From positions 310,001-374,000 of the forward strand of contig NZ_FMUH01000005.1 in assembly GCF_900101025.1 (NCBI RefSeq): a stretch of DNA of 64,000 bases, written 5' to 3'. Source of the stretch: Klenkia marina. GTDB taxonomy: Bacteria > Actinomycetota > Actinomycetes > Mycobacteriales > Geodermatophilaceae. Below are positions 1-4,413 of this stretch, piece by piece; position 1 is the stretch's first letter, and the number at the start of each line of letters is the position of its first letter. The position numbers and the translations under genes were made by a program. The notes beneath the pieces are model-generated. The model was not told where the DNA came from. It did no database searches and saw only the letters and a program-made list of their open reading frames with translations.

Positions 1-1294
1 GCTGACCCTCCTCGAGGTCGCGGAAGCCACCGCGGTCGGCGATGGCCGAGAAGTGCACGAACACGTCGGCGCTGCCGTCGTCGGGGGCGATGAAGCCGAA
101 GCCCTTCTCGCCGTGGAACCACTTCACGGTGCCGCCCTGCCCGCCCTCGATCGGCACCGGCACCGCCCGGGCCTCGCTGCGCGAGCGCTCTCGCGGGGTG
201 GACCGACCGGGGTCGCGCCGCGCCTCGCGGCGGGCCGGGTCGCGGCGCGGCGGCGGACCGGCGGAGTCCAGCGGCCGGACGACGTCGGCCTGCGGACCTC
301 GGTCGCCCGTGCTGGCGGCGAACTCGACGCGCTGGCCCTCCTCGAGGTCGCCGTAGCCGCCGTCGTCCTCGATCGCCGAGAAGTGCACGAACACGTCGCG
401 CGAGCCGTCGTCGGGCTCGACGAACCCGAAGCCCTTGTCGGCGTTGAAGAAGCGCACGGTGCCCTGCTGCAGACCCGAGCCGCGGCCACCGCCGGCACCG
501 CCCGGGAGCGGCTGCACGTGGGTGGCCTGCCAGCCCCGGTCGCCCTGGGTGGCCTCGAACTCGACCCGCTGGCCCTCGGCGAGGTCGCGGTAGCCGCCGT
601 CGTCGACGATCGCGGAGAAGTGCACGAAGACGTCGTCACCGCCGTCGTCGGGGGTGATGAACCCGAAGCCCTTGTCGCCGTTGAAGAACCGCACGGTGGC
701 CTGCGGCAGGCCGGAGCCGGCGTCGTACCCGCCGCCACCGCCACCGCCGCCTGCCAGCGGCTCGACGTGGGTGGCGGACAGGCCGCGCTCGCCCTCGGTG
801 GCCTCGAACAGCACCCGCTGGCCCTCGTCGAGGCTGCGGTAGCCGCCGTCGTCGACGATCGCGGAGAAGTGCACGAAGACGTCGTCGCCACCGGCGTCGG
901 GGGTGATGAACCCGAAGCCCTTGTCGCCGTTGAAGAACCGCACGGTGCCCTCGGCGCCGCCGCCGGACGAGCGCGGGGCCTCACGACGCGGCGCCTCGCG
1001 ACGGGGTGCGCGCTCCTCGCGCCGGGGCCCACGGTCGTCGCGCCGGACCTCCCGCGACTGCGAGCGGTCGACCTGCACCGGCGGACCGCCCAGCGGGCTC
1101 ACCCGGTCGGCCTGCAGGCCGCGCTGACCCGGGCTGGCCTCGTACTCGACGCGCGCGCCCTCGTCGAGGCTGCGGAACCCACCGGTGTCCTCGATGGCCG
1201 AGAAGTGCACGAAGACGTCCTCACCACCGTCGTCGGGCCCGATGAAACCGAACCCCTTCTCGGCGTTGAACCACTTCACGAACCCCTGCGGCAT
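1..1294 (-). CDS. Multi-domain cold-shock protein, at least five tandem CSDs (partial)
   Basis: At least 431 residues; the 3' end lies outside the window. It is built from tandem cold-shock domains, the OB fold that binds single-stranded RNA or DNA. Five copies lie at about residues 1-68, 116-180, 199-263, 278-342 and from 388 on. Each keeps an RNP1-type KGFGF core and an RNP2-type VFVHF core. Linkers are Arg/Pro-rich after domains 1 and 4 and Gly-rich after 2 and 3. The ATG was chosen because AGGAG lies 6 nt upstream and domain 1 starts at once. Ordinary bacterial Csp proteins are one domain of about 67-70 residues, so the architecture is unusual. An RNA-chaperone role is inferred from the fold only. 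Confidence 0.93.
587..698. repeat. Intragenic repeat unit A (CSD3)
   Basis: Pairs with 836-947. By eye the two 112-bp blocks differ at only three positions (offset 249 bp, 83 codons). Each encodes the first two thirds of a cold-shock domain. Confidence 0.9.
836..947. repeat. Intragenic repeat unit B (CSD2)
   Basis: Near-identical partner of 587-698 (109 of 112 bases match). It suggests recent domain duplication or gene conversion inside the poly-CSD gene. Confidence 0.9.
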
Positions 1295-1364
1295 GCCCTG
1301 CTCCTGCACTCGACTGCACTGCGAAACCTGTGTGTGTACCCGACCAGCGTCCCATCCGGCACGG

Positions 1365-2513
1365 TCACCCCTCCGCAGGGTGCACCGGCCGGGGTGCCAG
1401 CACCAGGCAGAGCGCCCCGATGGCGGCCAGCAACCAGAGGCTGATGAACCGGTAGACCACGACGGCCGGGACCGCCTGGGCGGCCGGGAGGCCCGCGGCG
1501 ACCAGGGCGGAGGCGACCGCCGCCTCGACCACCCCGATGCCCCCCGGCGTGAGCCGGGTGGAGGAGACCAGGGCGCCGGCGGCGAAGGCCAGCGCGGCTC
1601 CCCGCAGGGAGAGCTCGGCACCGACGGCGTGCACCGCGAACAGCAGGCACAGCGCGTCGAGCACCCAGTTCGCCAGCGCCAGCAGACCGGCCGCCACCGC
1701 GTTGCGCGCCCCCGGGCGGATCGACCCTAGCGAGGTGAGGGCGTCGTCGACGGCCGGGCCCACGACGGCCGGGCGCAGCACGCGGAACCAGCGCGACAGC
1801 GGCGCCAGCACGGTCATGAGCAGCTTGACGACGAGGTTCTTGGCCTCGGCGCTGCGGGTGACCGCGAGCAGCGTGAGCACGGGGACGACGGCGGCCACCG
1901 ACGCCAGCGACGCGACCACCGCGCCCACCGTGCTGCCCGTCGCCGCCGAGCTCACCGCCACGACCGCGGCCAGGGCCACCGTCGAGCAGACCCCCGACAC
2001 GGCGAGGGTCCAGCTCACCAGGACGGCGTTGTTGCCCAGGTCGCGCATGCGCCGGAAGCCGTAGGCCACGCTCGCCGCCGACCCCGCCAGCGGAAGGCCG
2101 ACGGCGATCGCGTTGCCGCCGTACACGGTGGCGGTGAGGCTGCCCTGCGGCGCGACCCCGCCGCCCGACCGCAGCAGCAGCTGCTGCTGCCACACCAGGC
2201 ACTGCATCGACAGCAGCTGGACGGCGACCGCCGCCAGCGCCCAGCGGGGGTCGGTGGACGCGATCGTGGCGAACCAGCCCAGGACCGACTGCCGGAACAC
2301 CACCACGGCCACCACGGCACCGACCGCGAGGAGCACGCCCAGCACCGGGCGCCACCAGCGGGCCACCGGACCGCGCCCGGACCCGGGACCGTCGTCCTGC
2401 CCGCTGTCGGGAGTGCCGGCCGGGAGACCCTCCGGGGCACCCTCGGCCGCCGGGCCACCCGGCCGTTCCAGGTCCGGGCCGCCCGGGTGCACCGGATCGG
2501 GGCCGTCGGTCAT
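1365..2513 (-). CDS. Lysylphosphatidylglycerol synthase-type transmembrane (flippase-like) protein
   Basis: 382-residue integral membrane protein of the LPG_synthase_TM type (PF03706 family), the membrane domain of MprF-like lipid flippases found alone in many actinobacteria. The first 50 residues are Gly/Pro/Asp-rich and probably cytoplasmic. About eight hydrophobic helices follow, with the family-type segment [13 protein letters not shown] near the C-terminus. No soluble synthase domain is present, so lipid aminoacylation is unlikely and lipid or polyprenyl translocation is the best guess. The ATG lacks a clear Shine-Dalgarno. The gene is divergent from rnj and runs toward the cold-shock gene. 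Confidence 0.75.
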
Positions 2514-2714
2514 CACCGCAGACCGTAGCGACACCGCGCCCCCGCGGTCGGCCTGCTGACCCGTGGGGGTGAGAGGTGACCGGGCTGGTCGTCCCGTCGT
2601 CACCGGGAGATCATCCGCCGTCCACCACCCGCCCGCCCGGCGGACCCGCCGTCCACCCGACCGCGCACGCCGCCGCGCGCGGCAGCCGCGACCGGTCCTG
2701 TCGGTGGGGCCCCG

Positions 2715-2727: not shown

Positions 2728-4413
2728 ATGAGCCGCACGCACCCCGAGCTGAAGACCCCGCCGCCCCTCCCGGAGGGGGGCCTGCGGATCGTCGCGCTCG
2801 GCGGTCTCGGCGAGATCGGCCGCAACATGACCGTCTTCGAGCACGAGGGCAAGCTGCTGGTCGTCGACTGCGGCGTGCTGTTCCCCGAGGAGCACCAGCC
2901 CGGCGTCGACGTCATCCTCCCCGACTTCACGTCCATCCGTGACCGCATGGACGACATCGAGGCCATCGTCCTCACCCACGGCCACGAGGACCACATCGGC
3001 GGCGTGCCCTACCTGCTGCGCGAGCGGCGCGACATCCCGCTGGTGGGCTCCAAGCTCACCCTGGCCTTCATCTCGGCCAAGCTCGAGGAGCACCGGATCA
3101 AGCCGGTGCTGCGCGAGGTCGCCGAGGGCGACCGCGTGCCCTTCGGCCCCTTCGAGACCGAGTTCCTCGCGGTCAACCACTCGATCCCCGACGCGCTGGC
3201 CGTCGCCATCCGCACCGCGGCCGGCATCGTGCTGCACACCGGCGACTTCAAGATGGACCAGTTCCCCCTCGACCAGCGGATCACCGACCTGCGCGGCTTC
3301 GCCCGGTTGGGCGAGGAGGGCGTCGACCTCTTCCTCACCGACTCCACCAACGCCGAGGTCCCCGGCTTCACCCTCAGCGAGGGCGACCTGGTGCCGGCCA
3401 TCGAGACGGTGTTCCGCACCGCCCCGAAGCGGGTCATCGTCTCCAGCTTCGCCAGCCACGTGCACCGCATCCAGCAGGTGCTCAACGCCGCGCACGCGCA
3501 CGGCCGCAAGGTGGCCTTCGTGGGCCGCTCGATGGTGCGCAACATGGGCATCGCCCGCGAGCTGGGCTACCTCGACGTCCCCCAGGGCCTGGTCGTCGAC
3601 CTCAAGCAGATGGACAAGCTGCCCCCCGACCAGGTGTGCGTGATCTGCACCGGGTCGCAGGGCGAGCCGATGGCCGCCCTGTCGCGCATGGCCAACCGCG
3701 ACCACGTCATCCGCATCTCCGAGGGCGACACGGTCCTCATGGCCAGCTCGCTCATCCCGGGCAACGAGAACGCGATCTACCGCATCATCAACGAGCTCAC
3801 CCGCTGGGGCGCGAACGTCGTGCACAAGGGCAACGCCAAGGTGCACGTGTCCGGGCACGCCAGCGCCGGCGAGCTCGTCTACTGCTACAACATCGTCAAG
3901 CCGCGCAACGTCATGCCGGTGCACGGCGAGTGGCGGCACCTGAAGGCCAACGGCGAGCTGGCCATCAAGACCGGCGTGCACCCGCGCGGCGTCGTCCTCG
4001 CCGAGGACGGCAACGTCGTCGACCTGGTCAACGGCAAGGTCCGCATCACCGGCAAGGTCAGCGCCGGCAACGTCTACGTCGACGGGGCCACCGTGGGCGG
4101 TGCGACCGAGGCCTCGCTGAAGGACCGGCGCAACCTGGCCGAGGAGGGCGTCATCACGGTGGTCGCCATCGTCGACGCCGACACCGGCCTGCTGGCCGAG
4201 CCGCCGGACTTCCTGGCCCGCGGCTTCGTGCACGACGAGGGCACCTTCGACGGCGTGGTCCCGCTGATCGAGAAGGCGCTCGCCAAGGCGGCCGAGGAGG
4301 GCGTGGGCGGCGCGCTGCAGCTCGAGCAGCTCATCACCCGCGCGGTCGCGCAGTGGGCGCACCGCAACGGCCGCCGCAGCCCGATGATCATCCCCGTCGT
4401 CATCGACGCCTAG
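2728..4413 (+). CDS. rnj: Ribonuclease J
   Basis: 561 residues, full length for actinobacterial RNase J, the metallo-beta-lactamase/beta-CASP ribonuclease with 5'-3' exonuclease and endonuclease activity in mRNA decay and rRNA maturation. The zinc motif LTHGHEDHIGG is at about residue 80. Further family signatures are HTGDFKMD, the aspartate in LTDSTNAE and the beta-CASP segment HVSGHAS. The C-terminal domain follows and is complete. The ATG at 2728 is preceded by TAGCGT at 7 nt and no ribosome-binding site, which points to a leaderless message. Upstream in-frame codons are ignored because similarity starts near this Met. A hairpin follows the stop. Confidence 0.97.
   Translation: MSRTHPELKTPPPLPEGGLRIVALGGLGEIGRNMTVFEHEGKLLVVDCGVLFPEEHQPGVDVILPDFTSIRDRMDDIEAIVLTHGHEDHIGGVPYLLRERRDIPLVGSKLTLAFISAKLEEHRIKPVLREVAEGDRVPFGPFETEFLAVNHSIPDALAVAIRTAAGIVLHTGDFKMDQFPLDQRITDLRGFARLGEEGVDLFLTDSTNAEVPGFTLSEGDLVPAIETVFRTAPKRVIVSSFASHVHRIQQVLNAAHAHGRKVAFVGRSMVRNMGIARELGYLDVPQGLVVDLKQMDKLPPDQVCVICTGSQGEPMAALSRMANRDHVIRISEGDTVLMASSLIPGNENAIYRIINELTRWGANVVHKGNAKVHVSGHASAGELVYCYNIVKPRNVMPVHGEWRHLKANGELAIKTGVHPRGVVLAEDGNVVDLVNGKVRITGKVSAGNVYVDGATVGGATEASLKDRRNLAEEGVITVVAIVDADTGLLAEPPDFLARGFVHDEGTFDGVVPLIEKALAKAAEEGVGGALQLEQLITRAVAQWAHRNGRRSPMIIPVVIDA

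Follow-up and report, generated by a model that had tools for sequence, protein, structure and literature searches.

The window analysed here, a stretch of 64,000 nucleotides, lies on a contig of the 4.2-Mb genome of Klenkia marina. Its left edge cuts a minus-strand open reading frame that starts with an ATG at position 1294, stays open to the edge and ends 65 bases beyond it, in the adjoining part of the contig (L010). Extending the frame in this way, as the sequence-only reading of the window had proposed, yields a complete gene for a protein of 452 residues. The start is supported by a conserved GCAGGAG six bases 5' of the ATG, which is identical in nine of nine aligned Klenkia loci and recurs in all eight loci displayed from other genera. 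Scans for a sigma-70-like promoter and for a terminator found neither; note that such scans are uninformative in DNA this rich in GC.

Table 1. Coordinates of the five-domain gene, its parts and the features discussed with it. Positions are those of the window unless a locus (L) is given; residues are those of the 452-residue protein; CSD, cold-shock domain.
Feature	Position	Strand	Remarks
Five-CSD gene, 452 aa	1..1294	-	last 65 bases including stop beyond left edge; whole gene L010:9936-11294
Likely ribosome-binding site GCAGGAG	1301..1307	-	conserved upstream of the ATG
CSD 1, residues 4-68	1091..1285	-	
Linker 1, residues 69-115	950..1090	-	47 aa; 13 Arg, 6 Pro; pI 11.5; disorder predicted for most of it
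CSD 2, residues 116-180	755..949	-	
Linker 2, residues 181-198	701..754	-	Gly 10/18
CSD 3, residues 199-263	506..700	-	89% DNA identity to CSD 2
Linker 3, residues 264-277	464..505	-	Gly 7/14
CSD 4, residues 278-343	266..463	-	
Linker 4, residues 344-387	134..265	-	44 aa; 11 Arg, 8 Pro; pI 11.8
CSD 5, residues 388-452	1..133	-	cut by the window edge; whole in L010
LPG_synthase_TM protein	1365-2534	-	Pfam; upstream of the array gene; start codon uncertain
RNase J	2728-4413	+	Pfam; divergent from the array gene, 1.4 kb away
Second-type four-CSD proteins, other actinomycete families	L165:4847-6244; L166:4714-6297; L179:961-1989		

The product consists of exactly five CspA-type cold-shock domains (CSDs, D1 to D5) and four linkers. 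The Pfam CSD model (PF00313) matches five stretches, the whole protein scoring 414 bits where the curated cut-off is 27, and each of the five has an intact RNP1 and RNP2, which places the protein in this family and sharpens the original claim of at least five tandem CSDs with intact RNP motifs. Weaker Pfam matches (OB_RNB, TOTE S1/CSD, CusF, CSDE1 and DUF5666) coincide with the same OB-fold stretches. Chance is excluded for the individual domains, each of which was recovered separately in the genome with E values from 3.6e-26 to 1.4e-23. Since only three residues precede the first CSD and the last one forms the C-terminus, the chain is made almost wholly of CSDs and linkers.

We further checked those residues of the domain face that, from the Csp literature, we take to bind nucleic acid (K13, F15, F17, F28, H30, F31, an aromatic at 40, and position 8). 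All five CSDs of the window protein keep the first six as well as the aromatic at 40, with position 8 being Trp in D1 and D5 and Phe in D2 to D4. Across 88 array domains from 21 Geodermatophilaceae proteins, F15, F17, F28 and H30 never vary; 86 have K13, and 86 likewise have an aromatic residue at position 31. Position 8 is Phe in 36 of the 88 and Arg in eight. Judging by these residues, Phe or Arg in place of Trp may make for weaker binding.

Between the domains stand spacers of 14-47 residues, in which the Arg/Pro-rich and Gly-rich segments noticed at first sight could be assigned: linkers 1 and 4 are Arg/Pro-rich and basic (net charge +4 and +5), and linkers 2 and 3 are Gly-rich. The CSDs themselves are acidic (pI 4.2-4.7, net charge -5 to -9). 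An AlphaFold2 model of the part inside the window (431 residues, nine alignment rows) contains strands of five barrels, the fifth of them truncated, and pLDDT falls below 50 at residues 74-112, 182-194, 266-274 and 344-378, that is, at most linker residues. With a mean pLDDT of 62.7 and a pTM of 0.27 the model is weak and uninformative about contacts between domains; barrels joined by linkers predicted to be disordered nonetheless fit beads on a flexible string. This alternation of acidic domains with basic and Gly-rich linkers, together with the predicted disorder and the likewise R-, D- and G-rich linkers of arrays in other genera, might be read as the mark of a condensate scaffold, in which acidic CSDs, Arg- and Gly-rich linkers and RNA would assemble into liquid-like ribonucleoprotein bodies under stress. 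Given that the linkers are short and the protein as a whole is acidic (pI 4.8), we consider such a role unlikely.

How does this layout compare with known cold-shock systems? A passage in a review describes bacterial Csps as single-CSD proteins as a rule (PMC7825780). Taken one at a time, the Klenkia domains resemble CspA/CspB-type Csps in family, RNP1/RNP2, size and predicted strands, and single bacterial Csps of this type (1mjc, 1csp, 5o6f) match best among the solved chains. However, a classical Csp has about 70 residues and one domain, whereas the Klenkia protein strings five CSDs together with charged and Gly-rich linkers over 452 residues. More than one CSD per bacterial chain is also found in Alphaproteobacteria, where a passage on Caulobacter CspD describes a two-CSD protein (PMC4830024), set apart from the Klenkia protein by that description in domain number, two versus five. 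Among the 79 loci kept from a scan of species genomes (see below), nine carry two-CSD open reading frames, eight of them under alphaproteobacterial names, with best segments 30-47% identical to the window protein. A Clostridium sp. cold-shock protein is named, in a single sentence, as having canonical and non-canonical CSDs (PMC7383231), so that by this description there is precedent for a single bacterial chain with several CSD-like domains. Its non-canonical type, for which we see no space in the Klenkia protein, sets it apart.

The closest eukaryotic parallel is UNR/CSDE1, to which the sequence-only reading had likened the layout. As a passage in the same paper has it, UNR holds five canonical CSDs interleaved with four non-canonical ones that restrict the orientation and spacing of the domains (PMC7383231). 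The likeness holds for the five canonical, RNA-binding CSDs per chain and, going by that passage, ends there: the Klenkia spacers are shorter than a CSD and predicted to be disordered, which at 14-47 residues leaves no room for UNR-type non-canonical CSDs, and the Pfam CSDE1 model (PF23456) scores 19.7 bits, below its cut-off of 27. Homology with UNR was rejected on these grounds and because the domains are of the bacterial CspA type; the resemblance appears superficial and is best read as convergent. The shared count of five canonical domains does invite the idea of an UNR-like post-transcriptional regulator that reads a defined multi-site RNA pattern and governs how a few mRNAs are translated or degraded, perhaps together with RNase J, although the sub-threshold CSDE1 score already speaks against it. 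We return to this idea once the evidence on domain divergence and gene neighbourhood has been given.

In the open literature, going by titles and abstract openings among the matches listed, we found no paper on bacterial proteins that have at least three CSDs; searches for tandem, multiple or three-to-five CSDs returned eukaryotic or unrelated papers only, again by titles and abstract openings, which does not prove absence from print. Bacterial multi-CSD proteins surely have entries in sequence databases, annotated as cold-shock proteins.

Within Klenkia, the five domains are present in all nine genomes searched, in seven as a single open frame. One of the other two (G007) has the gene split across two contig ends, and in G005, a one-contig assembly, the fifth CSD is out of frame with the first four (L168:4956-6400), the frame change in linker 4 being genuine or else the result of misassembly. 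The genome of the window itself has no frameshift that would split the repeats. Across 15 pairs among six Klenkia genes, the domains have a median dN of 0.055, dS of 0.245 and dN/dS of 0.22, and the linkers 0.20, 0.52 and 0.42; by these substitution ratios the gene is under purifying selection. The seven closest loci in the scan of species genomes, with best-segment identities of 76-86%, come from six Klenkia records and Modestobacter sp. Leaf380. The latter (G004; L046, L169) has a five-CSD array and the Klenkia gene order and is probably misnamed.

Beyond Klenkia, arrays of three to five CSDs occur in 16 of 22 Geodermatophilaceae genomes, all 16 that passed a threshold of E 1e-32 in this sample having been confirmed as arrays by domain counting. 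Domain number varies by genus. Klenkia has five CSDs per open frame; there are four in two Modestobacter records and in genus g6, which includes one of these records, four in g2 (three genomes) and g9 (one genome), and three in g4 (four genomes) and g3 (one genome). The six family genomes below the threshold represent g5, g7, g8, g10, g11 and g12, one each, the g5 genome being 79% complete. Absence from six of 22 implies that the function of the array is dispensable or is met by single Csps.

The wider searches covered 35 to 60 genomes each, with the same threshold, which could miss divergent short arrays. At least five of 41 genomes in the order sample carry four- or five-domain arrays, three of them inside the family and two (G044, G049) outside. 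A further genome, G043, passes with one CSD and an Arg/Asp-rich tail that stops at an apparent contig end; as a second CSD stands at another contig end, its array may be split. Five of 60 genomes pass in the class sample, and the four other than the genome of the window hold four, four, four and three CSDs. In the phylum sample the genome of the window alone passes (1 of 60). The layout is thus unusual for bacteria, as had been supposed (four of 59 other class-sample genomes and none of 59 other phylum-sample genomes at E 1e-32), and such arrays are not common in the phylum sample, which would have undone the point if it were otherwise. Phyla other than its own were covered solely by a pattern scan, in which the window protein was run against 84,980 species genomes; it found 140 relatives, of which 79 loci were kept. 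Nine of these have four or five CSDs, all under the names Klenkia or Modestobacter, nine have two, and 61 have at most one, a weak second domain being liable to be missed at the threshold used. Note that the scan under-counts divergent arrays because it requires exact peptide patterns of the window protein. An origin from mobile elements or phages was rejected: when 72,556 plasmid and 50,697 phage records were searched by tblastn, the top-scoring stretch per record, among the matches listed (the best 40 of 1805 plasmid and best 20 of 72 phage matching records), always spans fewer than 280 bases, a single domain. All in all, the five-CSD protein is real, conserved, unusual for bacteria and built of ordinary parts.

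How did the arrays come to differ in length? In eight Klenkia proteins, D2 and D3 share 88-96% DNA identity and other pairs within a protein 71-83%, while CSDs at the same position average 91-93% across species. D1, D4 and D5 each cluster with the CSDs of the same position; between D2 and D3 homogenisation is partial, as they mix by species in a tree of DNA sequences and mostly separate in a protein tree of the same domains, which makes a conversion or re-duplication likely, albeit an incomplete one. In a wider tree, D2 of the window protein pairs with its own D3 (support 0.83), and the 89% DNA identity of the two points to a recent duplication or conversion. Keep in mind throughout that the domains have only 60-odd residues and that supports are FastTree local values. 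All eight Modestobacter domains fall into one clade (0.87) and D2 to D4 of g2 into another (0.77), so arrays in these genera have partly expanded separately, and a clade of Klenkia D1 with g2 D1 (0.94) speaks for a common first domain. By pattern, G171, G148, G154 and G010 have a domain in which the loop preceding VFVH is shortened. D2 of G154 and D2 of G010 group with D2 of g4 (0.84), but D3 of G171 groups with D3 of g9 (0.88) instead, leaving a class-wide ancestral array no more than hinted at. G044, G049 and G147 share a second array type, found in other families of the same actinomycete class and having four CSDs per chain; these are divergent and position-specific, lack the aromatic at position 31, are joined by Ala/Pro-rich linkers and group by position with supports of 0.98-1.0 at each position.

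Such turnover raises the question of whether domain number matters at all. Imagine that an array did merely what a single Csp does: copy number would then drift with little consequence as the DNA repeats recombined. Copy numbers of three, four or five by genus, the family genomes that go without an array, the homogenised D2 and D3 and the displaced fifth domain of G005 would all fit. Yet five domains recur in nine of nine Klenkia genomes, positional identity is retained by D1, D4 and D5, and selection is purifying, which makes redundant accretion improbable, the least favoured of the explanations we weighed.

The same comparison bears on the idea of a specific regulator, against which the likeness of the domains within an array speaks (71-96% DNA identity in the eight Klenkia proteins). 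In its favour is the neighbourhood: the order RNase J, LPG_synthase_TM, array gene is found in eight of nine Klenkia genomes, the RNase J being confirmed by Pfam, and the 5.6-kb contig of the ninth (G008) has LPG_synthase_TM and stops short of RNase J. However, RNase J lies on the opposite strand, the loci searched from other genera (6-11 kb) show neither gene next to the array, and no other neighbour common across genera was found among the loci compared. As the two genes, among these loci, adjoin the array only in Klenkia, we rejected the neighbourhood as a functional clue and see in it no evidence for a partnership with RNase J. A dedicated regulator of the UNR kind is therefore doubtful.

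The most economical reading that remains is of a protein that acts on its own as a multivalent chaperone for RNA, or for other single strands; to this we would give a probability of about 60%. Five OB-fold CSDs with intact RNA-binding faces, tethered by disordered linkers, would enable one molecule to bind an mRNA at several places, or more than one RNA, with greater avidity than a single Csp. Bound RNA would be kept unfolded and, as each CSD presumably binds weakly, released again, and a flexible string should confer avidity for long single strands, or for several at once, without imposing a fixed geometry. The Arg-rich linkers 1 and 4 would offset the acidity of the CSDs and probably add contacts to the backbone. 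Internal duplication and conversion, in setting domain number at three, four or five by genus, may then have tuned valence rather than specificity. What the sequences show is the architecture, the intact binding residues, conservation, selection, domain turnover and the predicted disorder of the linkers; RNA binding, chaperoning, avidity, linker contacts, targets and a part in the response to cold or another stress are inferred. A bolder extrapolation, which we put forward tentatively, is that Actinobacteria evolved, independently of eukaryotes, a multi-CSD family whose valence is tuned by duplication and whose members serve as multivalent RNA-holding scaffolds, possibly forming condensates, under environmental stress.

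The usual view of bacterial Csps is of RNA chaperones that are weak and have one domain, and the proteins considered here make up a natural series of one, two, three, four and five domains. Since its units are similar and its linkers variable, the effect of valence on chaperoning becomes testable in proteins that selection has kept. The array also constitutes a bacterial parallel to the multi-CSD proteins of eukaryotes, one that does without folded spacer domains.

Two minor observations may be added. The two-CSD open reading frame of a metagenome-assembled genome binned as Anaerolineae (L055:3971-4582) equals that of an alphaproteobacterial one (L056:187-798) in length and domain positions, possibly through a binning error or transfer. 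To the left of the window, a convergent plus-strand open reading frame of 587 residues (L010:8156-9919), which has no Pfam match at 1e-4, was found in the available stretches of four of nine Klenkia genomes, in copies 46-52% identical to the one next to the window.
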